From NCBI RefSeq assembly GCF_036014015.1, contig NZ_CP107905.1:434001-498000 (forward strand): DNA of 64,000 nucleotides, read 5' to 3'. Shown here piece after piece: positions 15,047-46,523 of this stretch. Below the pieces are notes generated by a model. The model was given only the letters and a program-made list of their open reading frames with translations, made no database searches and was not told the DNA's origin. The DNA comes from Streptomyces sp. NBC_00457 (GTDB taxonomy: Bacteria > Actinomycetota > Actinomycetes > Streptomycetales > Streptomycetaceae). Position numbers and translations under genes: made by a program. Numbering within the stretch: position 1 is the first letter of the stretch; the number at the start of each line of letters is the position of its first letter.

Positions 15047-15709
15047 TCATTCGACGGGCGGGACGGGGCTGACGCAGCCATCGGTGCCGTCGAACACCTC
15101 ACACCATTCCCGTCTCGTCCGCGTGCGAAAGACGCCGGCAAAGAGGCGTCTCAGCTCCGCCCAGACCGAGGGGTCCCGGTGATCGGGCACCATCTCCCAG
15201 ACGCCCAGCAGCCGGACGAGCTCCCGGTAGCCGTCCGGTTCCAGGGCGCGGACTGCCATCCGGTGACCGTCGGCGGTGCGATAGACGGCGTAGAACGGGC
15301 AGCCCACGAGGGTGTCGTCGACGATCCCGCCCTCCCCGGTGCGCGCCGCCTGTGCCAGTGCCGCCAGCACGGCCACCGCCAGGTGCAGCGCGGCTGCCGG
15401 ATCGTCGGCGCCGCCTGCCATGATCGTACGTCCGTAGACGAGCCGCGGATTGCGGGCCAGGCACCGTTCGGGGCCGGGCCCCCGGGCGTCGGCCGATGAC
15501 TCCACCACGACGTCGGCGCCGACGGCGAGTTCGAGCACCGCCTCGGCGTCCGCGGACCGGTCGACGCGTACGATCTCGGCGCCGAGGCCGGCGAGCAGCA
15601 CCCCGCAGAGAGATGCGTCGCCCGGTGGTACCAGCTCGACGACCCGCAGTCCTTTGAGTGGAGTCGTCGTGAGGTCCGGAAGACGGGCGCCGCCTTGGAG
15701 AGCGGACAT
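15047..15709 (-). CDS. Shortened CaiB/AMACR-like (family III CoA-transferase) protein
   Basis: The protein has 220 residues against about 350-400 for the family. The N-terminal LKGLRVVELVPPGDASLCG and AEIVRVDRS Rossmann part and the C-terminal PFYAVYRTADGHRMAVRALE and TRREWCEVFDGTDGCVSPV match alpha-methylacyl-CoA racemase-like members. The middle region, with the GHDxxY segment that carries the catalytic His in racemases, is missing: LVYGRTIMAGGADD runs straight into the next helix. It may be non-catalytic or decayed. It is the last gene of the minus-strand operon, preceded by GGGAGGGG. Confidence 0.72.
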   Translation of the reverse strand: MSALQGGARLPDLTTTPLKGLRVVELVPPGDASLCGVLLAGLGAEIVRVDRSADAEAVLELAVGADVVVESSADARGPGPERCLARNPRLVYGRTIMAGGADDPAAALHLAVAVLAALAQAARTGEGGIVDDTLVGCPFYAVYRTADGHRMAVRALEPDGYRELVRLLGVWEMVPDHRDPSVWAELRRLFAGVFRTRTRREWCEVFDGTDGCVSPVPPVE

Positions 15710-15712
15710 GTC

Positions 15713-16486
15713 TCACCCCTCCCGGTCACCGGTCAGCCGGGTGATCGACGCACGGGTGCCGGCCCGGCTGGTCGTAGGACTCACGTGGAGCACCGGGCCC
15801 ACGCTCACCCGTGGCGGCCGGGTCACCGCCCACAGCACGGTCTCCGCCACGTCCTCGGGGGTGAGCAACTCCTCTGCGCCGACGCCCAGTTCGTCGGGAT
15901 CGGCCGACAGCTCCGTACGCACCCAGCCGGGGCAGATCGCCACGGCTCGCACGCCGTGGTCCCGGTTCTCCAGCGCCACCAGCTCGCTGAGCACGTTGAG
16001 GCCCTGCTTGCTGACGGCGTAGCCCGCGGTGTGGCTGAGCGTCTCGCGGGTGATGGAGGAGCCGATGTGCACGATCGTGCCTCCGCCGTTCTTGCGCATG
16101 TACGGCAGGGCCGCGTGGCACAGCAGATACGGCACGGTGAGGTTGAGGCGGATCATCAACTCCCAGTGTCTGGGCGGGAGTTCGTGGACCTGTGCGAGCC
16201 GCACCACGCCGGCGCAGTGCACCAGCGCCGTGGGGGTACCGAACAGTTCCACGGTCTGCGCGACCACCCGCTCCGGCTCGCCCTCGGCGGCCAGGTCGGC
16301 GGCGAGGACACTCGCCCGTCCGCCGCGCGAGTGCACCTCCTCGGCCACCCGGGACAGCGGCTCGATGCGCCGTGCGACCAGGACGACGTGAGCCCCGGCA
16401 TCGGCCAGCGCCCGGGCTACGGCCGCTCCGATGCCCGACGAGGCGCCGGTCACCACCGCCACTCCGGAGAACCCGACGGTGCTCAT
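15713..16486 (-). CDS. Short-chain dehydrogenase/reductase
   Basis: This 257-residue SDR has VVTGASSGIGAAVARAL, VLVARRIEPL (Arg-Arg suggests NADPH), HCAGVV, HIGSSITRET with the catalytic Ser and AGYAVSKQGL with Tyr/Lys. It is probably a 3-ketoacyl or ketone reductase. Its ATG overlaps the stop of the fused SDR (ATGA), so translation is coupled. C-terminal length is normal. Confidence 0.9.
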   Translation of the reverse strand: MSTVGFSGVAVVTGASSGIGAAVARALADAGAHVVLVARRIEPLSRVAEEVHSRGGRASVLAADLAAEGEPERVVAQTVELFGTPTALVHCAGVVRLAQVHELPPRHWELMIRLNLTVPYLLCHAALPYMRKNGGGTIVHIGSSITRETLSHTAGYAVSKQGLNVLSELVALENRDHGVRAVAICPGWVRTELSADPDELGVGAEELLTPEDVAETVLWAVTRPPRVSVGPVLHVSPTTSRAGTRASITRLTGDREG

Positions 16487-18141
16487 GCCAGGCCCCCGTT
16501 CCCGGCCAGCGGTGGCAGTCCGCCCAGGGCGAGGCCGCCGTCGACATGCAGGACGGCACCCGTCACGTACGCGGACGCGTCCGACGCCAGATAGGCCACG
16601 AGCGGCGCCACATCGCCCGGCAGACCCGCCCTGCCCTGGGGGATCCTGGCGAGCCATGCGTCCTGGAACCCTTCGTGCGCCGACGCGTCGGCCATCGGGG
16701 TGGAGATCAGGCCGGGCTGCACGCAGTTGGCCCGGATCCGGTGGCGTCCTCCGGAGACGGCGAGGCTCCGGGTGTGCTGGATCAGGGCGGCCTTGCTCGC
16801 GGCGTAGCTCTCCAGCCCGGGCACGAAGCCCGCCCCGGCGGAGCCGATCGCGACGACGGCGCCGCCGCGCCGGTCATGTGCCCAGCGTCGTACCAGCGCG
16901 TCGGCGAGGGTGACGTATCCCCGGTAGTTGACGTCCAACGTGCGTTCCCGCAGGGCGGGTTGGTCCTCCGGGGCCTCCGGTTCGCACAGTCCGGTCGCGT
17001 ACACCAGGGCATCGATCCGCGCCGCGGACCACAGCCGCTCCACCAGCGGCTCGAGCGCGTCGAGTTGTTGCACGTCCTGGCGCACGGCCTCGGCACGACG
17101 GCCCAGGGCGCTGATTTCGTGAGCCACGGCGAGGATTTCGCGCTCGCGCCGCGCCACGACCGTGACGTCGGCCCCCCGCCGCGCCAGCTCCAGCGCCGCC
17201 TCCCGTCCGATGCCGCTGCTCCCGCCGACGACCAGGCAGTGCCGTCCGCGCAGGTCGAACAGGTCGGCTCCGCCCCGGGATTGATCGAAGGGTTCCGTGC
17301 TGTCGGTGCGTGCGCGGGACGGGCGCAGGGGCGGAACCATCGTCAGTCCCATGCCGCCGTCGACCGGGATCGTCTCGGCCACCGTGTAGGTGCAGCCATC
17401 CGACGCCAGATGCAGGACGGCGGCGGCCAGGTCCGCGGGCTGGGCGACGCGGCGCAGGGGCAGGTGGCGCAGGACTGCGGCGGTGCGGTGCGCGCCGGGC
17501 CGGTGCGAGAGGCAGGGAGCGACACCGACGCGGATCTGGTTGGCGAGGACGCCGCGGCAGGACAGGCGGGCCGCGAGCTGCCGCCACCAGGCCAGGTCGG
17601 CTGCCCGCGCCGCCGCCTCGTCGGCCGGGACGCCGGTGTGCAGTCCGCCCGCCCCGTCCAGGACGAGGATCATCCGGCCCGATCCACGGTCCGCCATGGC
17701 CGCGGCGATCCGTGAGAGGGTCCTGCGCGGCAGGGGCGCGGACGGGGTGGCGCTGTCGAGGACGGCGGTGCCGGTGAGCAGGGCGCAGCAGATGTCGGGG
17801 ACCGCCACGTCCTGCCCACCGGTGTCGTCGACCAGTGCCCCGGCAGGCAACGTTTGCCCGTCAAGGAGCGGCGTCCGGTGCGTGCTCTCGGCGTGCCGGC
17901 CGGAAGGCCCCGTCGATGGACCGGATGTACTTGGGCTTCCGGCCGGTGCGGCGAGTGGGGGCACCCCCGGCCGAAGGCTGGGGGAGCGTGCCGGGCGTCG
18001 CGACGGGGCGAACGTTGCCTGTTGGGGCACCAGCTTCACGCCGACGCTTTCGAAGGCCTCGCGGAGGACGTCGTACGCCGTCCCGCGTGGGCCCAGGACG
18101 AGCGCGGTGGAACCGTGGATCGGCAGCGGGTCCTTGGTCAT
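16483..18141 (-). CDS. Tandem SDR fusion with a degenerate first half
   Basis: The protein has 552 residues. The first half (1-270) keeps the SDR outline: STALVLGPRG near 11, VLANQIRVGVAPC, and ASDGCTYTVAETIPVDGGMG at the end. It lacks the TGxxxGxG loop and the YxxxK pair. The second half (295-552) is a complete SDR with GGSSGIG (306-312), Ser434 and Tyr446-Lys450. A Pro/Ser-rich stretch lies at 46-80. The architecture resembles beta-ketoacyl reductases with a structural and a catalytic half, here without other domains. It overlaps both neighbours by four bases. The ketoreductase role is inferred. Confidence 0.82.
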   Translation of the reverse strand: MTKDPLPIHGSTALVLGPRGTAYDVLREAFESVGVKLVPQQATFAPSRRPARSPSLRPGVPPLAAPAGSPSTSGPSTGPSGRHAESTHRTPLLDGQTLPAGALVDDTGGQDVAVPDICCALLTGTAVLDSATPSAPLPRRTLSRIAAAMADRGSGRMILVLDGAGGLHTGVPADEAAARAADLAWWRQLAARLSCRGVLANQIRVGVAPCLSHRPGAHRTAAVLRHLPLRRVAQPADLAAAVLHLASDGCTYTVAETIPVDGGMGLTMVPPLRPSRARTDSTEPFDQSRGGADLFDLRGRHCLVVGGSSGIGREAALELARRGADVTVVARREREILAVAHEISALGRRAEAVRQDVQQLDALEPLVERLWSAARIDALVYATGLCEPEAPEDQPALRERTLDVNYRGYVTLADALVRRWAHDRRGGAVVAIGSAGAGFVPGLESYAASKAALIQHTRSLAVSGGRHRIRANCVQPGLISTPMADASAHEGFQDAWLARIPQGRAGLPGDVAPLVAYLASDASAYVTGAVLHVDGGLALGGLPPLAGNGGLA

Positions 18142-19397
18142 CGTTCCTCCAGGTGCTCGATCAGCAGGGACGTGGCGTCTCCCCCGCCGCCCGCCACCAT
18201 CACGAGGGCGTGCCGCCCGGTCAGCGGGGCGCGGTCGCGCTGGACCGGGGTCGCGTCGAGCCGTGCGTAGGGAGTGCGGCAGCCGGTCACGGGGGCGACG
18301 GTGCCGTGGTGGAACATGAGGGCCGAGGCGACGAACTTCATCAGCCCGACGAAGCCGAAGACGTGCCCGAAGGCGGCCTCCTGGTTGGTCAGCAGCAGCG
18401 GGCCGTCGTAGTCCATCGCTTTGCGCAGGCCGTCGAGGGCCTCGCAGAAGAGGTTCTCCACGTGGCGTGAGCCGTCGGCGAAGCTGTTGACGAAGGCCAG
18501 CCGGTCCATGCCGATGCCGGCGGCGGTGAGCAGGGCGTGTCCGTCCCGGGCGAAGTTGTCGGGTGGTCCGGAGATCATCGGGTTGGTGCCGTTGCTGCGC
18601 GAGGAGCGGAACGCGAGGCGCAGCGGGATCCCGGCCGTACGACCGGATTCCAGTACGACGGCCAGGGCGCCCTCGCCGGGGGCGTTGCCGTCCTGCTCCT
18701 CGTCGTGCGGACGTACGGACCGCGGGTCCGGTGACCAGGTGGAGATGCGGAAGCCGCGGCTGCGGCTCTCGTGCGTGGTGCTGGAGACGCAGACCGGGTC
18801 GAGGGTGGCGTCCGCTCCGACGACGATCGCCCGGTCCACGGTGCCGTCGCGGAGCAGGGCGGCGACCACTTCCAGGGCCCGCAGGGAGCAGTTGCAGGCG
18901 CCGGAGACGGTCAGGGTCTGCGGGCCGATGCCGAGGACGGAGCAGATGCCGCTGGTGACGCTTCCGGGGGTGCCGGTGAGCCAGTACTCCATGCCGAGCG
19001 CGTCCGGGCCGCCCCGCTCGTACAGCGTGAAGTAGCGGCGTGCCTCCTGGAAGGCGAACTGCAGGGAGGCGACGACGAGGACGGTACGGCCGTCGTCGAT
19101 GTCCTGGGCCGTCAGCCCGGCGTCGGCGAGCGCGTTCTTGACGGCGCCGGTGGCCAGCGCGGTGACGCGGGCCATCCGGTCGCCGACCCGCTGGGGCACG
19201 CCGAGTGCCGTCACCGGATCCCAGCCGGTGACCTGGCCCGCGATGCGCAGCGGGAGGTCGTCGAGGGCGAAGGGGGTCAGGCAGGTGGCGCCGGTGCGGA
19301 TGATGTCCCACAAGGCCGGGACGTCGGTGCAGGGCCGTCCGTCGGGGCCGGGCAGGACGGCACCGATGCCGGTCAGGGTCAGCGGCTCAGTGCTCAT
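18138..19397 (-). CDS. Beta-ketoacyl synthase-like protein with altered active site (KS-b)
   Basis: This 419-residue thiolase-fold KS keeps the nucleophile (Cys168 in TVSGACNCSLRAL) and the second histidine (EAAFGHVFGFVG). The first histidine motif HGTGT is replaced by VNSFADGS (His to Phe), and the lysine of KSxxGH is Glu. The N-terminal LTGIGAVLPGPDG and APGEGALAVVLES are typical of FabF-like KS. The residues lost are those used to decarboxylate malonyl donors. It is overlapped with KS-a, which carries parallel changes, so the pair may be a heterodimer. No carrier protein gene is nearby. Confidence 0.83.
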   Translation of the reverse strand: MSTEPLTLTGIGAVLPGPDGRPCTDVPALWDIIRTGATCLTPFALDDLPLRIAGQVTGWDPVTALGVPQRVGDRMARVTALATGAVKNALADAGLTAQDIDDGRTVLVVASLQFAFQEARRYFTLYERGGPDALGMEYWLTGTPGSVTSGICSVLGIGPQTLTVSGACNCSLRALEVVAALLRDGTVDRAIVVGADATLDPVCVSSTTHESRSRGFRISTWSPDPRSVRPHDEEQDGNAPGEGALAVVLESGRTAGIPLRLAFRSSRSNGTNPMISGPPDNFARDGHALLTAAGIGMDRLAFVNSFADGSRHVENLFCEALDGLRKAMDYDGPLLLTNQEAAFGHVFGFVGLMKFVASALMFHHGTVAPVTGCRTPYARLDATPVQRDRAPLTGRHALVMVAGGGGDATSLLIEHLEER

Positions 19398-20784
19398 CGT
19401 CACCCGCCGGGTGTCCGTACTCCGCGGCGCAGGGTTCCGGCGCCGCGAGCAGCAGCGCGCCGGCGGCGCCCATCTGGTAGTTGAAGCTCAGGGCCAGGTC
19501 GAAGGAGAGCGGCCGGGCCTCGCCGGTGACGACCGTGCAGGGGGCCTCGGGGACGACCTTCTCGCAGTTCGCGGTGGGGCAGACCTGTCCGTTGCGCATC
19601 ATCAGCAGGGTGGCGGCGGCGCCGATGACGCCGAGCGGTGCGCCGTTGTGCCCGAAGCACGCCTCGTGGTTGGTCAGCAGCGGTCCGTCGGCGGGGTCCG
19701 GGCCGTAGAGGGCGCGCAGGGCGCTGAACTCCATGAGGTGGAAGAGCGGGTCGCCCTCGGCGCCGCCGTTGACGACGGGGACGGCGGCGGGGTCGATCCG
19801 CTCGTGGCTGTCCGTGGCGCGCAGGGCGCTGCGCACCGCGCGGACGAGGGCGGCGCCGTCCTCGTCGGGGGTGAGTGCGCTGCCGGTGGCGGCACGCCGG
19901 ACGGCCTGGCCGAGGATCCGCCCGTAGGGCCGGCGGTCGCGGCGTTCGGCGTGCTCGCGGCTTTCGAGGATCAGGGTGGCCGCGCCCTCGCCGAGGTTGA
20001 AGCCCTCGGCGCGTTCGTCGTAGGGGCGCATCGGCCGGTCGTAGCGCAGCCGGGTGGTCGGGGCCGAGTAGGAGGAGGTGCGGCCGGTCCCCTCGGAAGC
20101 CCGGCCCAGTTCCTCGAAGTGGTCGATGTAGTCGAGGCTGTACGCGTCGACGCCGGTGACCACGGCGAGGTCCACCTCGCCGGAGGCGATCTGCTGGGCG
20201 GCGACGCCGAGCAGCGCGTTGGTGGAGGCGCAGCCGCAGGACAGGGAGTAGCTGGGGCCGCCGCTGCGCAGCAGGGCGGCCTGCACCGAGGCCACGTCGG
20301 TCGCGGTGACGGACAGCAGGATGCGCATCAGCAGTGCGCGGGCCTCGGCGGGACCGGTCCGTGAGGGCTCGGCGGTCACGCCCGCCATGTACGTCTCCAG
20401 GACCGTGTCGAACCCGGCCCGCCCGGTGAGGACCGCGGCCTCGGCGAGGTCGTTGCCGCGCCAGTTCAGACCGGCGTCCTCACAGGCCTCGACCAGGGCG
20501 ACGAGGCCGTAGCGGTGGACGTCGTTGTAGTGGGCCCGGAAGCGTTCGTCGAGTTCGGGGACCGCCGCCGCGAACTCCTCCTCGGCCAGGTGGACCCGGC
20601 CGTAGAACAGGCCGTCGTTGTCCAGGTGGGAGGCCGCGCGGGACACCGTACGCCACAGGTCGCCGCCGGTCCGGCAGACCGTGCGGTGGGGTCCGGGCAG
20701 GCAGAACCCCATGCCGGTCACCAGCACATCGCGCCATCCGGCCGTCACACTCACCACGTCAACTCGCTTCCGTTCAAGGGACAT
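19387..20784 (-). CDS. Beta-ketoacyl synthase-like protein with altered active site (KS-a)
   Basis: This 465-residue FabF-type thiolase-fold protein has its nucleophile at Cys185 in SLSCGCASTNALL and the second histidine in EACFGHNGAPLG. The HGTGT motif reads NGGAEGD (His to Gly) and the KSxxGH lysine is Glu, the same substitution as in KS-b. GFNLGEGAATLILE and the NYQMGAAGALLL C-terminus support the fold. It probably acts with KS-b on CoA-bound substrates, as acyltransferase or in non-decarboxylative condensation; this is inference from the missing residues. Confidence 0.83.
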   Translation of the reverse strand: MSLERKRVDVVSVTAGWRDVLVTGMGFCLPGPHRTVCRTGGDLWRTVSRAASHLDNDGLFYGRVHLAEEEFAAAVPELDERFRAHYNDVHRYGLVALVEACEDAGLNWRGNDLAEAAVLTGRAGFDTVLETYMAGVTAEPSRTGPAEARALLMRILLSVTATDVASVQAALLRSGGPSYSLSCGCASTNALLGVAAQQIASGEVDLAVVTGVDAYSLDYIDHFEELGRASEGTGRTSSYSAPTTRLRYDRPMRPYDERAEGFNLGEGAATLILESREHAERRDRRPYGRILGQAVRRAATGSALTPDEDGAALVRAVRSALRATDSHERIDPAAVPVVNGGAEGDPLFHLMEFSALRALYGPDPADGPLLTNHEACFGHNGAPLGVIGAAATLLMMRNGQVCPTANCEKVVPEAPCTVVTGEARPLSFDLALSFNYQMGAAGALLLAAPEPCAAEYGHPAGDDEH

Positions 20785-20806
20785 TGATGACCTGGGCAGT
20801 CCGAGC

Positions 20807-21814
20807 TCACAGCCGGAACAGCAGCCCGCCCTCGTAGAACCCGGAGCCGATCGCCGGGGTGAGGTACAGCTGGCCCGGACGGGTGCGGCCGCTGTCGATC
20901 AGCTCGGACAGGGCGATGGGGATGGAGGCGCTGGAGGTGTTGCCGCGCGTCTCCATCGTGACCACGAAGCGGTCGGGGTCGATGCCGGCCTTCTCCTGGA
21001 CGGCGGTGTGCAGCGGGTCGGTGCCGGGGTGGATCAGCACCCAGTCGATGTCCTCGATCTCCAGGCCGTTGCGTTCCAGGAGGAGTTCGATGGCCCGCAG
21101 ATTGCCCTCGATGGCCCGCTCGATGAGGTCGGGGGTGCTGGTGAGCCAGCCATTGGGGCGGCGGGCGTGGATGACGCGCGCGTCCTCGCCGTCACTGAAC
21201 AGCACGGAGTCGATCAGCCGTGGGGCGGTCGGCGCGAGGCCGTCGGTGCGTTCCAGGACGACGGCTCCCGCCGCGTCGCCCGCGACCAGCTCGCCCTTGC
21301 TGCCGGGCCGGGTGCCGCGCGAGAGCTGCTCGGAGCTGACGACGACGGCGGTGCGCCAGGGGCCGGGCGAGGACAGCATCGCGGCGGCGGACTGCACCCC
21401 GTGCACGAATCCGGCGCAGGCCCCGCACAGGTCGAAGCCGAGGGCGCGGCGGGCGCCGAGCTCGTGCGCCACTGTGGGGCCGTACTCGGGGATGAACTGC
21501 CGGTCGGTCCAGTTGGTGACGATGACCAGGTCGACCTCGCGCGCGGTGCGGCCGGCCTCGCGCAGGGCGTGCTCGGCCGCGCGGACGGCCATGTAGTCGA
21601 TGGTCTCCGCCTCGTCGGCGACGTGCCGCGACTTGACGTTCAGCCGGCCGATCACGGCCTGGTCGATCGCGTTGAACCGCTCCTCGGCGCCGACGGCGTC
21701 CGGCGTGTTGTGCACGACGCGTTCGGGGAAGTAGTGCCCGACGCCGGTGATGCGGATTCCGGCCCCCGCCCAGGTTCCTCCGCTGCGGATGGGTCCAACT
21801 GCCGTGTCGGTCAT
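20807..21814 (-). CDS. 3-oxoacyl-ACP synthase III (KASIII/FabH)-like protein
   Basis: The protein has 335 residues. The triad is complete: Cys133 in LCGACAGFVHG, His in LIHPGTDP (instead of the usual HQAN) and Asn in ETRGNTSSASIP. RITGVGHYFPERVV near the start and PAIGSGFYEGGLLFRL at the end are typical. KASIII members in secondary metabolism start chains from CoA esters or transfer acyl groups. The ATG overlaps the stop of the ligase gene. A second KASIII lies five genes upstream, so heterodimer formation, as in LstAB, is conceivable. Confidence 0.87.
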   Translation of the reverse strand: MTDTAVGPIRSGGTWAGAGIRITGVGHYFPERVVHNTPDAVGAEERFNAIDQAVIGRLNVKSRHVADEAETIDYMAVRAAEHALREAGRTAREVDLVIVTNWTDRQFIPEYGPTVAHELGARRALGFDLCGACAGFVHGVQSAAAMLSSPGPWRTAVVVSSEQLSRGTRPGSKGELVAGDAAGAVVLERTDGLAPTAPRLIDSVLFSDGEDARVIHARRPNGWLTSTPDLIERAIEGNLRAIELLLERNGLEIEDIDWVLIHPGTDPLHTAVQEKAGIDPDRFVVTMETRGNTSSASIPIALSELIDSGRTRPGQLYLTPAIGSGFYEGGLLFRL

Positions 21815-23415
21815 GGGTGTTCGGTGTCCTCTCGGTGGATGGTGACCGGGTCGCGGCGGACGGTGTGGCCGGCCGTCTCGCGGTCCCAGGTGTCGGCGGT
21901 GACGCCCGCGTCGCGCAGCAGGTCCTTGCGGACCTTGCCGGTGGGTGTGACCGGCAGTTCGGGCTGAGTGCGGATGTAGCGGGGAAGCATGAAGTGGGCC
22001 ATGCGCGGGCGCAGGAAGCGCAGCAGCGCTGCGGGGTCGAAGTGCTCACCGGGTACGGGGCTGACGACCGCGAGGACTTCCTGTTCGCCGTGCTCGCCGG
22101 GAACTCCCACGGCCGCGGCGTCGCGGACGGCCGGGTGGGCGCGCAGTTCCTCCTCGACCTCGAAGGAGGAGATGTTCTCGCCGCGTCTGCGGATGGCGTC
22201 CTTGATCCGGTCGACGAAGTACAGCTCACCGTCGGCCTCCTGACGGAAGGCGTCGCCGGTGTGGAACCAGCCGTTGCGCCAGGCGGCCGCGGTCGCCTGC
22301 GGCATGCCGTGATAGCCGTGGCTGAACGCCCAGGGCACCTCCGCCCGCAGCACCAGTTCGCCGACGCTGCCGCGCGGGACTTCTCGGTCGTACGAGTCGA
22401 CGACGCGTGCCTCGATGCCGGGGCGCGGCCTGCCGCAGCTGCCGGGCCGGGTGGGCCGGGGGCCCGACATGACCGGACAGGACGTCTCGGTCATGTTGAA
22501 CAGCGTGCGCACCTCGACGCCGAACCGGGAACCGAAGGCGAGGGCCGTCTCCGTGAAGGGGATGACGTAGGCCGTGCGCAGCGGATGCCGGGTGTCCTCG
22601 GGGGTGGGCGGCTGCTCGGTGAGGAAGGCCGCCATGGCGCCGAGGAGGGTGCAGGCGGTCGCGCCGAGGCCGCGGACCTGCTTCCAGAAGGCCTCGGTGC
22701 GGAAGTGCGACGCGACGGCGACCGATCCGCCCAGGCCCAGCATGCCCAGGACGCCGAGGACGCCTCCGGCGTGGAAGAGCGGCAGGGTGACGAGGTAGCG
22801 GTCGTCGCCGGTGAGCCACTGCCCGTAGGCGGCCGTGGCGCTGGTGTGGAGGTGGGCGTGGCTGCACAGCACGCCCTTGGAGTGACCGCTGGTGCCGGAG
22901 GTGTGGATGATGGTTTGGGTGTCCCAGGGCTCCAACGGGGCGTCAAGGGCGGTGAGTTGGTCGGCATGGGTGGCCAACGGGTCGCCCGTCCGGCCGTCGA
23001 CGACCAGCACCCTGAGGTCCGGTCCCAGGTCGAGGCCGTGCAGGTGCGTCGCGAGGTCCTGGCAAGTGATCAGCAGCCGGGCGTCCAGGCCCCGTACGAC
23101 CCGCTCCAGCATCCGCCATCGGTAGGCCGTGTTGAGCGGTGCCCACACGCCTCCGGCGGCGACGGTGCCGAACCAGGTCCGCAGCTGGTCGGGGCCGTTG
23201 GGCAACCAGCTGATCACCACGTCCCCGCGGCCCACGCCTTCCTGTCGGAGCGCCGCACCCGTCGACCGGGCCTGCCGCCAGGCGTCGGCGTACGTCCATC
23301 GCTCGCCGTCCTCGAACAGGGCGAAGAGCCGGTCGGGATGGCGGGTGGCCTGCCGGGCGAGCTGCTCGCTGACGACGCACTCCTCGCGCGCGGGCACGGA
23401 GCCGTGCGGGCTCAT
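21811..23415 (-). CDS. AMP-dependent acyl-CoA synthetase/ligase (CaiC-like)
   Basis: This 534-residue ANL enzyme has the P-loop IIHTSGTSGHSKG (169-181), TLFNMTETS, GWFHTGDAF, DRIKDAIRRRGENISSFEVE and the A10 lysine in TPTGKVRK. It activates a carboxylic acid to its AMP ester and CoA thioester. It is a close paralogue of the ligase at 33827-35449, sharing SHGYHGMP, AAAWRNGWFHTGDA and IRRRGENISSFEVE. It overlaps both neighbours (ATGA), and the upstream neighbour is again a CocE-type hydrolase. The acid substrate is unknown. Confidence 0.92.
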   Translation of the reverse strand: MSPHGSVPAREECVVSEQLARQATRHPDRLFALFEDGERWTYADAWRQARSTGAALRQEGVGRGDVVISWLPNGPDQLRTWFGTVAAGGVWAPLNTAYRWRMLERVVRGLDARLLITCQDLATHLHGLDLGPDLRVLVVDGRTGDPLATHADQLTALDAPLEPWDTQTIIHTSGTSGHSKGVLCSHAHLHTSATAAYGQWLTGDDRYLVTLPLFHAGGVLGVLGMLGLGGSVAVASHFRTEAFWKQVRGLGATACTLLGAMAAFLTEQPPTPEDTRHPLRTAYVIPFTETALAFGSRFGVEVRTLFNMTETSCPVMSGPRPTRPGSCGRPRPGIEARVVDSYDREVPRGSVGELVLRAEVPWAFSHGYHGMPQATAAAWRNGWFHTGDAFRQEADGELYFVDRIKDAIRRRGENISSFEVEEELRAHPAVRDAAAVGVPGEHGEQEVLAVVSPVPGEHFDPAALLRFLRPRMAHFMLPRYIRTQPELPVTPTGKVRKDLLRDAGVTADTWDRETAGHTVRRDPVTIHREDTEHP

Positions 23416-25091
23416 CCGCCGTCCTCCCCCGGTTGCCGGCGGCCCAGCACGGGCAGTCGGAGCAGCGAGGGCCGGGCCGCGTCGTGGAAGACGGACTGGT
23501 GGGCCACCACTCCCTGGGTGTCCTGGCCCGGGCGCCGGCCGGTGTTCATGTTCCGGTCCAGATGCGGGAAGTTGCTGCTGGTGACCAGCAGCCGCAACCG
23601 GTGTCCGGCCTCGAACCGCCAGGCGGTGTGCCCGAGGTCGACGGTGCACCGCTCGGGCACCGACGGGGTGAGGGGCTTCTCGCTGTCGAAGCCCTCGCGG
23701 TAGCGGGTGCGCAGCGCGCCGTCGCAGACCAGGATCGAACGGCCGTCGGGGAAGACGTCGGTGAGCTTGACGACGATGTCCGTGTCGGGCGCCGTGCTGG
23801 CGAAGCAGAGGGAGGCGGTGACGTGCCCGACGGCCTCGATGGCGACGGCGAGTTCGGGTCCGGTGTAGACGACGGTGTCGGCGCGCTCCTCCAGGTGCCG
23901 CTGGTTGAGCGGCCCGCCGACGAGTTCCCCGAGGGCCAGGACGCGGCCCCCGTGGGTGGGGGACGGGTCGTCCGGATCGTAGGTGTAGGTGTCGGCGGGC
24001 TCGTCGTCCTGCGGCGGATAGAGGGCGAGCCGGCCGCCCTCGCGCAGGTACCACAGTCCGGCGGCCGACTCCTCTGGCGGCCAAGTCCCGGCCGTACGCC
24101 ATTCGTTGGCGCCCATCATGAAGTAGCTCACGGGCTCGGCCGCGCGCTCGACGCCCTTGAGGTGGGTGTCGAAGAAGTCCAGGACCCGTTCGGCCACCGG
24201 GCCGTACTCCCCCGCCGCGGTGAGCCCGAAGTTCAGCTCGCCCTGGTACTGCGGCAGGGTTCCGGAGTGGCCCCAGGGCCCGATGACGAGGCGGTGGCCA
24301 CCCGGATCGCGGCGGGCCAGCTCGTCGTGGAGGGCGATGCTCGGCCCGTTGTAGATGTCGAACCAGCCGGTGAGCGACAAGGTGGGGACGGTGACGTCCG
24401 TGGTGCGGATGTCGGGCCCGTACGTGTGGCCCCGCTCCACCATCGCCCCCAGGGACAGCGGGCTGTCCGGCACGTCCAGGATGCGGCCGAGGGGAAGCCG
24501 ACGCAGTTGCTCCTGCGGGGAGTTGAGATAACGGAGCAGGGACGAGAAGCCGTGCCCGCGCCCCTTGGCCGTCTGCCGGCGCATCCAGTCGACGGCCATG
24601 AAGCCGAGCCATCCGGCGAGGTGGGACAGGCGCACCGCACCGCCGGTGGCCAGCGGGTCGTGCGCGGCCGAGGTGGTCATCGCCGGGGCGATCGCCCGCA
24701 GGTGCGGGGGCTTCAGCATCGCCCCGAGCCACTGCACGATGCCGAGGTACGACATCCCGCTCATCCCTACGGCGCCGTCGCACCAGTCCTGGACGGCGAC
24801 CCACTCGACGGTGTCGTGGGTGTCGCGGGCCTCGGTGGCCCACATCCCGGTGTCCCACTCGCCGTCGGAGGCGAAGCGTCCCCGGGTGTCCTGCACGACG
24901 GCCGCGTATCCCGCCCGGACGCAGCGGTCCGGGGGCAGCGGGTCCATCCTGGTCGCCGCCTTGTCGTACGGCGTGCGGTAGACGATCGCGGGGCGGGCCT
25001 CGCCCGGCACCCGCCAGACGTCGGCGCGCAGCACGGTACCGTCGCGCATGGGGATCTCGACGTCCTGGTCGACGACAATTCCGCTCGCCAA
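23412..25091 (-). CDS. CocE/NonD-type alpha/beta hydrolase (X-Pro dipeptidyl-peptidase S15 family)
   Basis: The protein has 559 residues. The nucleophile is Ser114 in SGMSYLGIVQW. The acid is in TLSLTGWFDIYNGPS and His in LVIGPWGHSG. The C-terminal jelly-roll domain contains DLGHTAWRFEAGHRLRLLV. Relatives hydrolyse esters or amides of bulky acids, such as cocaine esterase. The start is TTG at 25091 with GGAGG seven bases upstream; no ATG fits. It is coupled to the following ligase, suggesting hydrolysis and then CoA activation, or product release. It is one of three paralogues in the window. Confidence 0.9.
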   Translation of the reverse strand: MASGIVVDQDVEIPMRDGTVLRADVWRVPGEARPAIVYRTPYDKAATRMDPLPPDRCVRAGYAAVVQDTRGRFASDGEWDTGMWATEARDTHDTVEWVAVQDWCDGAVGMSGMSYLGIVQWLGAMLKPPHLRAIAPAMTTSAAHDPLATGGAVRLSHLAGWLGFMAVDWMRRQTAKGRGHGFSSLLRYLNSPQEQLRRLPLGRILDVPDSPLSLGAMVERGHTYGPDIRTTDVTVPTLSLTGWFDIYNGPSIALHDELARRDPGGHRLVIGPWGHSGTLPQYQGELNFGLTAAGEYGPVAERVLDFFDTHLKGVERAAEPVSYFMMGANEWRTAGTWPPEESAAGLWYLREGGRLALYPPQDDEPADTYTYDPDDPSPTHGGRVLALGELVGGPLNQRHLEERADTVVYTGPELAVAIEAVGHVTASLCFASTAPDTDIVVKLTDVFPDGRSILVCDGALRTRYREGFDSEKPLTPSVPERCTVDLGHTAWRFEAGHRLRLLVTSSNFPHLDRNMNTGRRPGQDTQGVVAHQSVFHDAARPSLLRLPVLGRRQPGEDGG

Positions 25092-25249
25092 GGGACACCT
25101 CCGTCAAGGGAGTTGGTCGTACGAGGGGAGGGGCGCCGCCCACGCTAGGCAGCGCGGCCGGCGATCACATCGGCCGCCGAGTACCTGCTCGGCGGGCGGG
25201 CCGGGACTTCCAGTACTGGTCACCGGCTCAAGGGAATTGCAGGGCCGGT
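25092..25249. other. Short gap inside the minus-strand operon
   Basis: The only non-overlapped junction above 25 bases in the operon. I see no strong hairpin or operator. It may hold an internal promoter for the hydrolase-to-CaiB part. Confidence 0.35.
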
Positions 25250-26041
25250 TCAGGGAATGCGGGCCGGGAACCCCCCACCGGCGACCTCGATCACGGTGCC
25301 GGTCAGGTACTGGTTGGTCACGGCGTGCAGCACCGTCTCGGCGACCTCGTGCTCGGCGGCGAACCGGCGCAACGGCACCTGTTCGCGCAGCCGCTCCATG
25401 TAGCGGGCGTGGGCCGGGTGCCGTGCGCCCTTCTCGCGCAGTGCGGCGCCGTCCACCACACCGGGCGCGACGGCGACGACCCGGATGCCGAACTCGCCCA
25501 GTTCGAGCGCCCAGCTGCGGGTCAGCGACACCACGCCGGCCTTGGCGGCCGCGTACGCCGACTGGCCCCAGGAGCCCTGCCAGGTGCAGCTGACGACGGG
25601 GACGAGCACGCCGCCGGTGCCCGCCTGCGCCATGGTGAGAGCGGCCTCGCGGCCGGCGAGGAACGTGCCGGTGAGGTTGAGGTCGACCGTGGCGTGCCAC
25701 TCCTCGATGCCGTGCGCGCTCCAGGCGCCGCCCGCCTCGCGGGGTGGACGCAGCAGTCGCTGGGAGAGGTTGCGGCCCGCGGCCATGACGCACACGTCGA
25801 GTTGGCCCCGTTGTGCCAGGTCGGTGAAGAGGCGCCGCACGTCGGCCGGCGCGAGCGTGTCGACCTGTGCCGTCGACAACTCCACGCCCCGCTCGGCGGC
25901 TTCCTTGCGGCAGCGCTCCAACTGCTCGGTGTCCCGGGCCGCGACGGTCGTCGGCCATCCCGCGGCGCCGAGCGCGTACGCGATGGCGGCACCGAGGCCC
26001 CGGCTGCCGCCGATGACGACGGCCTGTCCCCGCCTCGGCAT
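25250..26041 (-). CDS. Short-chain dehydrogenase/reductase
   Basis: This 263-residue SDR has VVIGGSRGLGAAIAYAL (the first Gly of TGxxxGxG kept, Thr replaced by Gly), TVAARDTEQ, VMAAGRN in place of NNAG, Ser in VVSCTWQGS and YAAAKAGVV. The NNAG variant and an insert SQRLLRPPREAGGAW suggest an unusual substrate. The start ATG shares one base with the KASIII stop (TGATG), so the two are coupled. It is probably a beta-ketoacyl-CoA reductase acting on the KASIII product. Confidence 0.87.
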   Translation of the reverse strand: MPRRGQAVVIGGSRGLGAAIAYALGAAGWPTTVAARDTEQLERCRKEAAERGVELSTAQVDTLAPADVRRLFTDLAQRGQLDVCVMAAGRNLSQRLLRPPREAGGAWSAHGIEEWHATVDLNLTGTFLAGREAALTMAQAGTGGVLVPVVSCTWQGSWGQSAYAAAKAGVVSLTRSWALELGEFGIRVVAVAPGVVDGAALREKGARHPAHARYMERLREQVPLRRFAAEHEVAETVLHAVTNQYLTGTVIEVAGGGFPARIP

Positions 26042-27048
26042 CACTGCTCCCACGGGCGGGGGCGGCCGTAGCTGAAGAGCATCGCGCCCCAGCTGAAACC
26101 GCGCCCGATGGCCATGCTCAGGATGCGGTCGCCGGGCGTGATCGTGCCGTCGTGGACGTACTCCGACAGACAGCTGGGCACGCTGACGCTGGAGGTGTTG
26201 CCGCGCCGCTCGATGTTGAGCAGGACGCGTTTGTCGTCGCGGATGCCGAGGGCGTCCTGCACGTCGTGGATCAGGTTGATGTTGCCCTGGTGCGGGATGA
26301 TCCAGTCGACGTCGTCGAGGTCGGCGTCCGCCTGCCGCAGGACCCGTCGGGTCGCGTCCGCCAGCACGCCGGGCGCGAACTCGCCGACGACCTTTCCCTT
26401 CATCACCATCGTGTCGTGCTCGTCGATGTCGAAGGCGTCGTAGTGGGTGGCGTCGGAGTGCAGTGTCACGGCGTGCAGGCCGTCGTCCGCACCGGGGTTC
26501 GCCCGCCACACGCCCGCGGCGGCGCCGCCGCCGAACAGGACGGAGTTGCGGTAGGAGAAGTTGAGGATCGGCCGGGGGTTCTCGGCGCAGACGATCAGTA
26601 CGGTGCGGTGGCCGGTGGCGATGAGGCCGCGGGCGACGGCGGAGGCGTGCAGGAAGCCGGAGCAGGCGACGCCGGTCACGTCCAGGCACATCGCCTTCGG
26701 GGCGCCGAGGCGGCGCTGCACCGGCAGGGCGACGTCCATGTAGTTGTTGCCGGGGCTCGTGGGATTGACGCGGGGGCGCGCGGTGGCGCTCGTGCCGAGG
26801 ATGACGTCGACGTCGCCGGGCTCCAGCTCGGCCTCGGCGAGCGCGCGGCGGGCGGCGCGCTCGGCCATGTCCACGTGCCGTTCGCCCTCGGGCGGCCAGT
26901 GCCGGGCGGCGACGCCGGTGTGGCGCAGGATCCACTCCTCGTCCACGCCCAGTTCGGGCCTGCTCGTGAAGTGGTCGTTGCGGACCGGCTCCCCGGGGAA
27001 GTCGTGGCCGATCCCGGCGAGTTCGACGGGTGGGCAGAAGACGGTCAT
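26041..27048 (-). CDS. 3-oxoacyl-ACP synthase III (KASIII)-like protein
   Basis: This 335-residue KASIII homologue has a complete triad: Cys129 in DVTGVACSGFLHA, His in WIIPHQGNINLI and Asn in ERRGNTSSVSVP. The N-terminal ELGVDEEWILRHTGVAARHW matches FabH substrate-cap residues. It differs strongly from the KASIII at 20807-21814. It probably condenses or transfers an acyl group from a CoA ester. It overlaps the CoA-transferase stop by four bases and is coupled to the SDR downstream. Confidence 0.88.
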   Translation of the reverse strand: MTVFCPPVELAGIGHDFPGEPVRNDHFTSRPELGVDEEWILRHTGVAARHWPPEGERHVDMAERAARRALAEAELEPGDVDVILGTSATARPRVNPTSPGNNYMDVALPVQRRLGAPKAMCLDVTGVACSGFLHASAVARGLIATGHRTVLIVCAENPRPILNFSYRNSVLFGGGAAAGVWRANPGADDGLHAVTLHSDATHYDAFDIDEHDTMVMKGKVVGEFAPGVLADATRRVLRQADADLDDVDWIIPHQGNINLIHDVQDALGIRDDKRVLLNIERRGNTSSVSVPSCLSEYVHDGTITPGDRILSMAIGRGFSWGAMLFSYGRPRPWEQ

Positions 27049-28727
27049 CGGTAGATCCCTTCGGGGTCGATCGAGCGCAGGAGGGCCAGTTCGCCGGCGG
27101 TCGGGGGCGGTTCGTGCCGCAGCGGGTCGGCAATCCTGACCTGCCATCCGGTGCGGTCCCGCACGGTCTCGGCGGGGCCCGCGGCATCGGTGCTGACGAG
27201 GCCGGGCGGAGGTGCCCAGGACGCGAGGCGAAAGGGCTCGCACGTCTTGTCCCGTTCGAAGCAGCCGAACTCGGTCACGACCTGGCTGACGTTGCGGCCG
27301 GGGCTGGTGACGAAGCCGACCGTCTCGGGGCAGCGGCGCGGTGATGCGGCCGTCACCACGATCGTCTCCACATGGCTGGCCACGTCGTTGGCGCCGCCGG
27401 AGCCGACCAGGAAGCCGCCGCCGGGCGTACGGCTGGTGTTGATACGGCCCTGCTGATCGATCTGCGCGGCGGACAGGACGCCCAGGGTGCGGTCGGCGCC
27501 GCCCGCGACGAGGCCGCCGAGCACCTCCCACGTCCCGGCGTGCTGACGGCATCCCTGCACATGCCGTTGGGAGAACAGGAACGTGTCTCCGGCCTGCGGC
27601 AGGAAGTCGATCATGCCGAGTTCGTTGACGACCTGGACGTGGACGCCCTCCTCCCGCAGCAGGCTTGCGGCCAGCCAACTGGCCAGGTGGGCCGTGCCGA
27701 TGCCGGCGAGGACGGTGCCGTACCCCCGTGTTCGCAGGGTGCGGGCGATGGTGCGGGCGGCCAGCACCAGGTGGTGTTCGCGGTCGGTCGGTGGCGCGGA
27801 GCGGGCGATGACGTCGGGCACCGCCGCGGTGACCGGCGCGTCCGGGTGGAGGCCGGCCAGCCGCGTCTCCCCCAGGCGGGCCAGGTATCCCTGGTGTCCG
27901 CCCGTTCCCGTGACCCACCGCTCGAACCACTCCTCGGTGAGCGCGGGATCGGCACACGCCTGCGCCAGGTCCTCCAGGAACAGGTAGTCGTCGAGGTAGC
28001 CCTCCACTCCGGCGTCCGCCAGCGGTGTGAGGCCCTGCGGGTGGGCGCCGTACGGGCAGGGGGCGAGGCCCAGCACCCGCTCGGCCGGGATCTGGCAGGC
28101 CGCGCCCGCGGGTGGGTCCGCGCGCACCGTCTCCACCGTGGCGAGGACACCGTGCTCGGCCGCCAGCGCGCCCCACCAGCCCTCCGCGACGGGACCGGAG
28201 AGATACAGGTTGCCCCGCTCGTCCGCACACTGGGCGTGCAGCAGCGTCACATCCGGGCGGAGCGCGGGCACCAGCACGGCCTCCCCTGCCTCGTGCCGCA
28301 GGGCGTCCAACTGCCGATGCCCCTGCGGCAGATCGGAGCCGGACAGCGAGGTGCTGACCGCGAACGGGGCGCCCGTGGCTCCCGCCATCAGCCGTTGCAG
28401 CAGGGAGAGCAGGCTCCACTCCTCGACCGGGAACGGGTCGCCCTCGGGCAGCCTCGCGTAGAGCCGGTTGGGACGGGACGTCGGGAAGGTGTCGCCCGCG
28501 AAGCCGATCACTGCGTGCTCGACCACTCCCGCCATGGTCAGCGCGTGCACCCCCGCGTGCAGGGCGTTGACGCTGATCCGGAACCGGCCCGTGCCCCGGA
28601 AGACCCGGGCGAGCGCCAGCACCAGGGCGTTGGGGCGGGACATGGTCGAGGCGATGTGCACCCGCATGCCCGGCGCCAGGAACCGCCTGCACAGCTCGTC
28701 GGGATCGGCGGCCACCACCGGGCTCAT
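27045..28727 (-). CDS. Fused alpha/beta family I CoA-transferase
   Basis: The protein has 560 residues. The N-terminal half resembles glutaconate-CoA-transferase alpha subunits (PGMRVHIASTMSRPNALVLA, PDVTLLHAQCADERGNLYLS). The C-terminal half from about 320 resembles beta subunits (VLAGIGTAHLASWLAAS, VQVVNELGMIDFLPQAG, GGFLVGSGGANDVAS). The glutamate in NELGMID is the likely catalytic residue. Such enzymes move CoA between acids, and IpdAB relatives in sterol catabolism hydrolyse rings instead. The two subunits are usually separate genes. Coupled by ATGA overlaps to the KS upstream and the KASIII downstream. Confidence 0.83.
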   Translation of the reverse strand: MSPVVAADPDELCRRFLAPGMRVHIASTMSRPNALVLALARVFRGTGRFRISVNALHAGVHALTMAGVVEHAVIGFAGDTFPTSRPNRLYARLPEGDPFPVEEWSLLSLLQRLMAGATGAPFAVSTSLSGSDLPQGHRQLDALRHEAGEAVLVPALRPDVTLLHAQCADERGNLYLSGPVAEGWWGALAAEHGVLATVETVRADPPAGAACQIPAERVLGLAPCPYGAHPQGLTPLADAGVEGYLDDYLFLEDLAQACADPALTEEWFERWVTGTGGHQGYLARLGETRLAGLHPDAPVTAAVPDVIARSAPPTDREHHLVLAARTIARTLRTRGYGTVLAGIGTAHLASWLAASLLREEGVHVQVVNELGMIDFLPQAGDTFLFSQRHVQGCRQHAGTWEVLGGLVAGGADRTLGVLSAAQIDQQGRINTSRTPGGGFLVGSGGANDVASHVETIVVTAASPRRCPETVGFVTSPGRNVSQVVTEFGCFERDKTCEPFRLASWAPPPGLVSTDAAGPAETVRDRTGWQVRIADPLRHEPPPTAGELALLRSIDPEGIYR

Positions 28728-30016
28728 CCGGCGGCCTCCATGATCAGCGCGGAGCTCTGGCTGCCGATGGCGAAGGCCAGGGACATCGCCATGCGCACCT
28801 CGCCGGGGCGGGCGCCTTCGGTGACGTGGTCGTGGTCGCACTCGGGCTCCACGGTCTCGCAGTTGATCGTCGGCGCCAGGCACTGGTGTTTGAGCATCAG
28901 GGCGAGCGCGGCGCAGTTCACCAGGCCCGCCGCGCCGAGCAGATGGCCGTAGACCGGTTTGACGGAGCCGAGCGGTGTCCAGTCGCCGCGCCGGGGTCCG
29001 AAGAGGTGGCCGAGCGCGCGGCTCTCGGCCAGGTCGTTGTAGCGGGTGGCGGTGCCGTGACCGCAGATGTAGTCCAGTTCCCCCGGCGCGGCGCCCGCCG
29101 TCTCGAGGGTGTCGGCCATCAGCCGCGCCGTGCTCTGCCCGCTCAGGTCCATCCGGGTCGCGTGGGCGGCCTCGCTGATGCTGTGGCAGGCCCGCAGCGC
29201 GGCGTAGACCGGTGCCTGCCGGGCCTGGGCGTGCTGCCTGCGTTCCAGTACGGCGACCACGGCGCCCTCGCCGAGCGCGAAGCCGTCCCTGCGCAGGTCG
29301 TACGGCTTGATCGCCCGCCGGGGTTCGGTGTCCCGGGACAGCACGCTCGTGCCCGACGCCGAGTAGACCTGCAACACCTCGGGGGTGAGCGGGAGTTCGT
29401 GGCCGACGACGAACATCACGTCGGCGGCGCCGCGCTGGATCTCGTGGGCTGCCAGGGCCAGCGCCTGATGGCCGCCCACGCAGGCGTTGCTGACGGTGGA
29501 GACCAGTGCCTGCGCGCCCAGCCGGATGGCGCTGAGCGACGCGGGTGTCCCGGCGAGTGAGGCGAAGACCGCCTGGGCCGGGGAGACCGGCGGGCGGGCC
29601 GGATCCCAGGCCGTGCCCGAGGCGGTCTGGGACCACCACTCGGCCGGTCCGCGGGAGCAGGAGGCGACGACCCCGGTGCGTGGCGGGTCGATCGCTCCGT
29701 CGTCCGCCAGGCCGGCGTCCCGCGCGGCGTTCTGCACGGCCGAGAGGACGACGAGGATCTCCCGGCTGTACCGCTTGGCGAAGTTGTCGGGCAGGTCCGG
29801 CAGGTAGGGCGTGTGCTCGAAGTCCCCCAGCCGGCCGGCGCTGTGGATGCCGGTGCCGGAGGAGAGGACCGGCGGCAGCGCGCTGAGCTGGGAGTCGCCT
29901 TCCCGTAATTGTCGCCAGACCATCTCTGGACTGTCGGCGCCCGGCAGTACGAAGCCGAGACCGGTGATGAGCACGTCCTCGAACGCCGTACCGGTTACGC
30001 GGGCCGAATGCGGCAT
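28724..30016 (-). CDS. Beta-ketoacyl synthase (FabF-like), first gene of the minus-strand operon
   Basis: This 430-residue KS has an intact active site: Cys179 in SNACVGGHQAL, His320 in GHGTATRYND, Lys353 and His358 in KPVYGHLLGAAG. It should condense with a malonyl-type extender, unlike the two altered KS later in the operon. The start ATG at 30016 has GGGAGG upstream. Earlier in-frame codons are less likely. No ACP gene was found in the window, so its donor is either an ACP encoded elsewhere or a CoA ester. Confidence 0.88.
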   Translation of the reverse strand: MPHSARVTGTAFEDVLITGLGFVLPGADSPEMVWRQLREGDSQLSALPPVLSSGTGIHSAGRLGDFEHTPYLPDLPDNFAKRYSREILVVLSAVQNAARDAGLADDGAIDPPRTGVVASCSRGPAEWWSQTASGTAWDPARPPVSPAQAVFASLAGTPASLSAIRLGAQALVSTVSNACVGGHQALALAAHEIQRGAADVMFVVGHELPLTPEVLQVYSASGTSVLSRDTEPRRAIKPYDLRRDGFALGEGAVVAVLERRQHAQARQAPVYAALRACHSISEAAHATRMDLSGQSTARLMADTLETAGAAPGELDYICGHGTATRYNDLAESRALGHLFGPRRGDWTPLGSVKPVYGHLLGAAGLVNCAALALMLKHQCLAPTINCETVEPECDHDHVTEGARPGEVRMAMSLAFAIGSQSSALIMEAAG

Positions 30017-30261: not shown

Positions 30262-30279
30262 TTAATGAACATTCATTAA
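30262..30279. promoter_or_regulatory. Palindromic operator between the two divergent core operons
   Basis: TTAATGAACATTCATTAA has 8-base arms around a two-base centre, in a gap of 286 bases between the KS gene on the minus strand and the thiolase on the plus strand. A copy with one change lies before the P450 gene at 45091-45108. This TetR-type site probably controls both operons. The rest of the gap holds no gene. Confidence 0.75.
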
Positions 30280-33830: not shown

Positions 33831-33864
33831 CACCGCCGGTGGATACGGTCATGACTCCGCCGGT
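33817..33864 (+). repeat. 24-bp tandem duplication at the SDR-ligase junction
   Basis: Two adjacent 24-base units, 33817-33840 and 33841-33864, differ at one base. The repeat covers the SDR stop and the ligase start, creating in-frame ATG codons at 33815, 33827 and 33851 and the peptide DTVMTPPV twice. Confidence 0.9.
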
Positions 33865-46503: not shown

Positions 46504-46523
46504 CACGAGAAGGCCGTACGTTC

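Follow-up and report, generated by a model that had tools for sequence, protein, structure and literature searches.

ACP-less type II polyketide synthases (PKSs; ACP, acyl carrier protein) of the nonactin/macrotetrolide kind have been in print since 2000–2001, as cited in PMC10817512 and PMC8866825. Producers of dinactin include a Streptomyces globisporus strain (PMC10817512) and a strain 99.93% similar to S. anulatus in its 16S sequence (PMC8866825), and clusters with low similarity to "macrotetrolide" clusters have been reported from genome mining (PMC7601586). NonJ and NonK have been named as ester-forming ketosynthase (KS) homologues (PMC4425429, PMC10006239). Pamamycin combines two unlike hydroxy acids, and the genes of its operon follow one another as pamA,B,D,E,O,K,J,M,N,L,H (PMC10644645); the pamamycin cluster does carry an ACP, pamC (PMC8176718). 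Here we analyzed a 64,000-nucleotide stretch of the genome of Streptomyces sp. NBC_00457 (contig NZ_CP107905.1, positions 434,001–498,000), hereafter the window, and in it an operon of condensing enzymes, reductases, and enzymes acting on coenzyme A (CoA) esters (operon 1). Judged by gene content and gene order, operon 1 groups with the ACP-less nonactin/macrotetrolide kind, and the clade to which the window belongs is a distinct variant within this known kind of synthase. New here are four clade genomes that have no NonS orthologue, have lost the presumably catalytic segments of a racemase, and possess a divergent second operon (operon 2). A previous sequence-only reading of the same DNA had put operon 1 forward as its best candidate for a new system, with OleABCD and LstABCD as precedents. 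Neither point is supported: ACP-less synthases had already been published, and gene content and order match the nonactin/macrotetrolide kind instead.

Gene content and active-site residues of operon 1

Gene calling over the whole window yielded 59 predicted genes, all of which were scanned against Pfam at E <= 0.001 (1e-5 for the last 19 genes). Operon 1 consists of 12 tightly packed minus-strand genes, A to L, running from 30016 down to 15047 (Table 1). Eight of the 11 junctions overlap by 1–11 bases, and the others are gaps of 158 (D/E), 79 (G/H), and 3 bases (K/L). Pfam and NCBIfam assigned three KSs (A, H, and I), two KASIII proteins (C and G), three short-chain dehydrogenases/reductases (SDRs; D, J, and K), a CoA-transferase (B), a hydrolase (E), a ligase (F), and a CaiB-like protein (L). 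The gene set and its mostly overlapping layout were thus as the sequence-only reading had described them, with a qualification for the CaiB-like protein: L is a relative of that family but not an intact CaiB/racemase, since its catalytic segments are absent.

The two halves of B match glutaconate CoA-transferase A and B, respectively, and the tree placed ligase F and the operon-2 ligase in two separate clades. Among named genomes, the nearest is that of Streptomyces sp. GESEQ-4 (locus L023), with operon-1 proteins 90–100% identical. Solved relatives of SDR J, for which a FabG4-like identity was considered, cover residues 287–546 only, among the matches listed. This protein is ~66 residues longer than its L023 counterpart (552 versus 486), within a low-complexity stretch.

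Active-site residues were compared over 20–23 family rows per gene, the window included. KS A kept Cys-His-His in all 20 rows, Cys-His-Asn was intact in KASIII proteins C (23/23) and G (22/22), and the catalytic Glu of CoA-transferase B (E of ExG) was found in 23 of 23 rows. The KS-fold protein H kept the Cys and the second His in all 21 rows and had Asn for the first His in all 21. In its partner I, both the Cys and the second His were present in all 20 rows, with Asn (18 rows), Ser (one), or Asp (one) at the first-His site. By residue comparison, this pattern fits a KS-fold pair making C-O bonds. In CerJ and Pau29, acyltransferase-type KS homologues, a His needed for decarboxylation is lost (PMC4425429). 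By analogy with these two proteins, which belong to another KS subclass, H and I are proposed to be an ester-forming (C-O) pair.

No phosphopantetheine-binding, acyltransferase, phosphopantetheinyl transferase, or PKS domain was detected by Pfam among the 59 window genes, as had been claimed for ACP, malonyltransferase, phosphopantetheinyl transferase, and modular PKS. When the entire 10.8-Mb genome was searched with PF00550 in six frames, 17 places came up; the closest on the left, within a 1973-aa frame, was 274 kb away and the closest on the right 2.4 Mb away. A dedicated ACP just outside the window was therefore not found. Likewise, a crude profile detected no ACP in 21 family loci and in added stretches of four further genomes (G100; S. 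albicerus, G101; S. scabichelini, G102; S. gobiensis, G139). This profile was made from five ACP domains, three of eight having been excluded by a motif filter, and it recovered its four controls at E below 0.001 except for L021 (0.29). With the same five-domain profile, an ACP-like frame was seen in L044, a locus without the gene set. Operon 1 is best interpreted as a synthase that works on CoA without a carrier protein. The earlier idea of a product built directly on CoA stands in that no carrier lies near; CoA itself as the carrier is what we infer.

Related loci and the window clade

The sequence-only reading had proposed a synteny search across genomes. An alignment of I was scanned against species genomes, which resulted in 22 loci, and the gene set recurred in 21 of the 22 fetched loci, all except L044; therefore, the operon 1 set is not a product of chance. 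Locus L042 contained only I-J-K before its contig end, several others were cut at contig or locus ends, and I was displaced downstream in L041. Loci L028–L036, L038, and L039 belonged to Streptomyces, except L035 of Catenulispora, and had the order KS, CoA-transferase, KASIII, KASIII, SDR, SDR, KS, KS, SDR, SDR, CocE, ligase. A hydratase-fold protein was present in all of them, and its gene followed directly behind the ligase in the seven of seven gene-called loci (L028, L029, L030, L032, L035, L036, and L039). In L039, CocE and ligase occupied one frame.

Loci of species with dinactin-making strains encoded five KSs, four ketoreductases (KRs), a ligase, and a NonS-like hydratase, the published content of the macrotetrolide synthase. 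The window contains five KS-type genes (A, C, G, H, and I) and four KR-type genes (D, J, K, and one operon-2 SDR), the fourth SDR not being at its place in kin. Ligase F and the operon-2 ligase are of the NonL type in the sense that they are related by sequence to ligases of macrotetrolide-type loci, not to a labelled NonL, and no ACP is present in or near the cluster. The NonS-type (hydratase-fold) cyclase is missing in the window clade. Synthases of this kind are rare in the genus: the I-type KS was found at E <= 1e-60 in 9 of 392 genomes, the own genome counted. The PhlA-type gene of operon 2 occurred at E <= 1e-40 in 2 of 392 (the own genome and S. gobiensis), both within these nine.

Of 20 family loci, 16 encoded a NonS-like protein (at least 51% identity to the L026 copy, L026 counted); the count excludes L037, which breaks off ahead of the position concerned. 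The loci without it were L023, L024, L025, and L040. In the clade genomes (G000, G100, G101, and G102), the best NonS match had 37–38% identity, which is the paralogue level of other genomes, and the L040 genome contained one remote match. No report of a NonS-lacking variant was found in the literature searched, the coverage of which left out most subscription journals.

The genome of S. gobiensis encodes operon 2, two NonS-like proteins, an extra SDR, a relative of an ATP-binding cassette (ABC) exporter, and a full-length racemase. In a tree of five concatenated proteins (16 rows; L023/G100 left out as nearly identical to the window), this species stood just outside the window clade with support of 99/98. 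Because S. gobiensis has both NonS and operon 2, the most sparing reading of these sequences is that operon 2 was probably gained first, and NonS was lost afterwards, once. For the same reason, replacement of NonS by operon 2 was rejected.

The segments of gene L holding the racemase His and Asp, which we take to be catalytic, are absent in four of four clade members and present in L026 and S. gobiensis. The ratio of nonsynonymous to synonymous substitutions (dN/dS) for L between the window and L023 was 0.70, with 0.04–0.26 for ten other operon-1 genes (A left out). Relative to L024 and L025, it was 0.35 and 0.34, and the other genes had 0.17–0.35. Since the latter values of L lie inside the range of other genes, the shortened protein may still have a role. 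No internal stop was found in the operon-1 genes compared.

Several loci deserve separate mention. Locus L040 (1943–18273) of Mediterraneibacter agrestimuris, a gut member of Lachnospiraceae, contains a KS cluster of the same kind, with no ACP seen by the crude profile. Genes for carboxyltransferase, acyl-CoA dehydrogenase, CoA-hydrolase, and hydratase are added there, and the hydratase is 23–28% identical to the NonS-like set. The I-type KS and CocE genes of L043 (9974–16035; Allosalinactinospora) are fragmented, with several frames in place of intact genes. Relatives of H with identity below 60% are common, with 477 plasmid records among them. Four of these records (L019–L022, linear Streptomyces plasmids) were opened and show distant H relatives (44–46%) directly before a large type I PKS gene, not this cluster. 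In two of these plasmids, a small DUF5988 gene precedes the H relative.

Operon 2 and the promoter palindrome

The operon proposed from the sequence alone (15047–30016) is real, but it is only half of the cluster: operon 2 (30303–43149), divergent from A, forms the second half and lay outside the earlier proposal. The two operons are side by side in G100, S. albicerus, S. scabichelini, and S. gobiensis, and one divergent promoter region is common to both in all five genomes seen. The draft assemblies of S. albicerus and S. scabichelini have contig ends within the cluster.

The first three genes of operon 2 encode a thiolase, a DUF35 protein, and a homologue of hydroxymethylglutaryl-CoA synthase (HMGS). 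The best solved relatives were PhlA-type chains for the HMGS-like protein and PhlB for the DUF35 protein, while for the thiolase they were, in order, acetyl-CoA acetyltransferase, archaeal thiolase, and PhlC. The HMGS-like protein and PhlA have QFSGKSGT in common, and the archaeal enzyme carries Cys at that site. PhlA is without this Cys, and acyl transfer involves PhlC residues only (PMC6392133). The Cys-less PhlA-type motif was matched in four of five genomes, with S. gobiensis unmatched by the pattern. In all five, the thiolase Cys was kept; the HDCF motif, absent from PhlC, is present as well. With three subunits together, a Cys-less PhlA-type protein, and a thiolase Cys, the trio would be classified by sequence as PhlABC type.

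The best solved relative of the operon-2 lipase is named "putative secreted lipase." Database look-ups for the ligand of the importer and for curated names of the NonS-like protein gave nothing specific, and protein searches for labelled NonJ, NonK, or NonS sequences gave generic names among the matches listed. The convergent TetR gene is kept in G100, S. scabichelini, and S. gobiensis. The amidohydrolase has 44–53% identity to proteins in related loci and is present in G100 and S. scabichelini; it was not found in the fetched stretch of S. gobiensis. On the other side, the LuxR-type regulator is kept beside the cluster in L023, L025, L026, and S. gobiensis.

A palindrome lies in the operon-2 promoter region. 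Its 14-base core was kept in four of four clade genomes and had one change in S. gobiensis. At no more than one mismatch, the core occurs twice in the 10.8-Mb genome, and a reversed control gave 0 matches. The second copy precedes genes for a cytochrome P450 and a sesquiterpene-synthase-like protein, a pair kept in G100 and without a match in the fetched part of S. scabichelini. The palindrome would link operon 2 to this pair as a regulon, and the TetR protein is a possible reader of it, judging by its position.

Three further observations concern the rest of the window. A set of beta-oxidation type (hydratase, thiolase, SDR, and TetR genes) adjoins the cluster at 10238–13953, and its hydratase has 54% identity to a hydratase near the cluster in L042. 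A third CocE-type hydrolase seems split into overlapping frames 49786–51330 and 51327–51584 (PepX_C 4–125 and 156–216). Mirror-image matches at nearly equal distances (~160 and ~261 kb) from both chromosome ends point to long terminal inverted repeats, and the window is located inward of these.

Table 1. Positions of the cluster genes and neighbouring features in the window
Feature	Coordinates	Strand	Basis
LuxR-type response regulator, convergent to operon 1	14398..15018	+	Pfam
L: shortened alpha-methylacyl-CoA racemase relative (CaiB, family III), 220 aa	15047..15709	-	CoA_transf_3
K: SDR ketoreductase	15713..16486	-	PF00106
J: two-part SDR, 552 aa, reductase domain in C-terminal half	16483..18141	-	PF13561, two stretches
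I: KS-fold partner of H, proposed NonJ/PamJ-like	18138..19397	-	PF00109
H: KS-fold protein, proposed NonK/PamK-like ester former	19387..20727	-	PF00109
G: KASIII	20807..21814	-	PF08541
F: acyl-CoA ligase, AMP-binding	21811..23415	-	PF00501 and tree
E: CocE/NonD hydrolase	23412..25091	-	TIGR00976, 464 bits (cut-off 66)
D: SDR ketoreductase	25250..26041	-	PF00106
C: KASIII	26041..27048	-	PF08541/PF08545
B: family I CoA-transferase, fused alpha/beta	27045..28727	-	PF01144
A: KS, FabF-like, position of pamA	28724..30016	-	PF00109/PF02801
Palindrome TTAATGAACATTCATTAA in operon-2 promoter region, behind TTGACA hexamer	30262..30279	.	14-base core kept in clade genomes
Thiolase, PhlC/archaeal type	30303..31490	+	Cys, HDCF, GHP motifs kept
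DUF35 protein, PhlB type	31523..31975	+	CxxC...CxxC zinc site
PhlA-type HMGS homologue without catalytic Cys	31972..33096	+	PhlA-type chain E 9.8e-66; QFSGKSGT
SDR of operon 2	33093..33830	+	Pfam
Acyl-CoA ligase of operon 2	33851..35449	+	Pfam and tree
CocE/NonD-type hydrolase of operon 2	35446..37152	+	Pfam
Lipase class 2, probably secreted (signal-like N-terminus by eye)	37420..38334	+	Pfam
Branched-chain-type ABC importer	38451..42362	+	Binding protein 38451-39698, permease 39695-40561, permease-ATPase 40554-42362
Second ABC ATPase	42367..43149	+	Pfam
TetR regulator, convergent to operon 2	43119..43790	-	Pfam
Amidohydrolase-2 protein	44007..45056	+	Relative of protein of macrotetrolide-type loci
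Second palindrome copy, one mismatch outside 14-base core, before P450	45091..45108	.	Genome search
P450 and terpene synthase	45121..47615	+	P450 to 46503 (start 45121 or 45130); terpene synthase 46524-47615

Proposed function and comparison with known systems

We consider it quite probable that operon 1 encodes a nonactin/pamamycin-type type II PKS without an ACP, which would operate as follows. KS A and the KASIII proteins C and G could perform single non-iterative condensations on CoA thioesters to produce a hydroxy acid, while SDRs D, J, and K would reduce ketones, setting the hydroxyls. Free acids could be charged with CoA by CoA-transferase B and the two ligases, and ester (C-O) bonds between hydroxy acids would be formed by the KS-fold pair H/I. 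Because NonS and the racemase are missing, the acid would stay open or be otherwise processed. With the NonS-type oxa-Michael cyclase and the intact racemase gone, the product should not contain the tetrahydrofuran of nonactic acid, and we expect an ester whose hydroxy acids are open-chain or have been processed in another way. Operon 2, presumably under the control of the palindrome, may represent a module for ester cleavage, import, charging with CoA, and thiolase-type chemistry that serves this acid or a companion. The observed basis is gene content, motifs, synteny, the presence or absence of NonS and operon 2, and the palindrome. From these we infer which substrates are used, that CoA serves in place of an ACP acting in trans, that esters are formed, how the genes are controlled, and in which direction operon 2 works. 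The window clade probably makes a compound related to the nonactin-type antibiotics. A wider scenario is doubtful: a carrier-free PKS lineage would have gained a PhlABC-type acyltransferase and an uptake/ester-cleavage operon and then dropped ring closure and racemisation, with ring-open esters, re-uptake of product or monomer, and the terpene/P450 pair under the same signal.

Several points weigh against the proposed function. The family link to Non and Pam was drawn from gene content, order, and species. The S. globisporus and S. anulatus loci are connected with dinactin by species match. Between E and K, the pam operon contains a single gene (O), as against two SDRs in macrotetrolide-type loci, and the published order lists no hydrolase gene ahead of L. 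The presence of pamC in the pamamycin cluster means that the carrier-free state is not universal among kin, and an ACP of primary metabolism could serve operon 1 in trans. In addition, relatives of H also occur outside this cluster kind, and the loss of NonS amounts to a single event confined to a single clade.

The role of operon 2 may be read in two ways. Salvage or catabolism is a serious possibility, if short of probable: the secreted lipase would open an ester outside the cell, the importer would take up the hydroxy acid, the CocE protein and ligase would convert it to a CoA ester, and the SDR and thiolase/DUF35 would degrade it, leaving operon 1 alone as biosynthetic. The lipase, importer binding protein, ligase, SDR, SCP2-like thiolase, and palindrome occur together, with a TetR gene at the end, which is consistent with salvage. 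Moreover, operon 2 of S. gobiensis has its own NonS-like hydratase, which could open a ring in reverse. However, the divergent promoter region common to both operons in all five genomes argues against a separate salvage function, importer specificity gives no pointer to a hydroxy acid, and the PhlABC complex, which the trio resembles, is known from biosynthesis. Tentatively, operon 2 might instead be biosynthetic, the PhlA/B/C-type trio carrying out C-acylation or a non-decarboxylative Claisen step, while a second acyl unit would be handled by the ligase and hydrolase of this operon, so that a mixed ester would result. The two separate ligase clades, the distribution of the Cys-less motif (4/5 genomes) and the thiolase Cys (5/5), and the two unlike hydroxy acids of pamamycin (PMC10644645) point in this direction. 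Yet the HDCF of the thiolase makes thiolysis or condensation on CoA esters as likely, and a biosynthetic role leaves the importer and lipase unexplained.

Borrowing of an ACP from elsewhere in the genome (the fatty-acid ACP or another cluster) is unlikely. The 17 PF00550 places offer candidates, and pamamycin synthesis uses pamC (PMC8176718), above all for larger derivatives, but no ACP was found in the window or, by the crude profile, in the 21 family loci and the stretches of the four further genomes, and the nonactin synthase is described as ACP-less. The other alternatives were considered and rejected. Decay of the cluster in the window clade, so that nothing is made, is very unlikely: the clade has neither the NonS copies nor one of the SDRs nor the ABC exporter, and its L is short, with a high dN/dS relative to L023, but the ten other genes have low ratios in the same comparison, no internal stop occurs in the compared genes, L resembles the other genes relative to L024 and L025, and the promoter palindrome is conserved. 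That operon 1 is a catabolic operon for a defined substrate is more improbable still. CoA-transferase, ligase, hydrolase, and SDR genes generally occur in catabolic operons too, but the KS/KASIII active sites of A, C, and G are intact in all rows, and the operon is syntenic with macrotetrolide-type loci. A beta-lactone or olefin pathway like OleABCD/LstABCD, which likewise uses thiolase-fold enzymes, an SDR, and a ligase on CoA esters, hardly comes into consideration, since the NCBIfam models matching C and G were FabH-type and related ones, with no OleA-named model among them (library content for OleA unchecked), five condensing enzymes do not suit such a pathway, and gene order follows non/pam.

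The window clade amounts to a natural experiment in which chains would be built and closed by esters without NonS-type ring closure or racemisation, and it offers a compact system for testing polyketide assembly wholly on CoA. The cluster in the gut Lachnospiraceae suggests that this strategy reaches beyond actinomycetes.

Among known systems, OleABCD and LstABCD share thiolase-fold, SDR, and ANL chemistry on CoA esters with the cluster but differ in the KS set, the gene order, and the proposed ester-forming KS pair. PhlABC (2,4-diacetylphloroglucinol; PpATase) resembles operon 2 in the three-gene thiolase/DUF35/HMGS-like set, the Cys-less PhlA-type subunit, and QFSGKSGT, while the thiolase of operon 2 retains HDCF and has better scores with other acetyl-CoA acetyltransferases than with PhlC, and no type III PKS (PhlD) occurs among the window genes. 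By enzyme type, as assumed for most pam genes, pamA,B,D,E,O,K,J,M,N,L correspond in order to KS, CoA-transferase, KASIII, KASIII, SDR, KS, KS, SDR, SDR, ligase of macrotetrolide-type loci. The pam cluster differs by the ACP pamC in a second operon and by aminotransferase and methyltransferase genes, and in the window the hydrolase and ligase are placed between D and G. The non cluster is described as ACP-less and has five KS-type and four KR-type genes, a ligase, and a KS-fold C-O pair, to which H/I would correspond, with related loci in S. globisporus, S. anulatus, and S. microflavus. The window clade differs from it in lacking a NonS orthologue and in having a shortened racemase; no ABC exporter was found in its cluster, and a second ligase/hydrolase pair and operon 2 with its Phl-type trio and importer are added.

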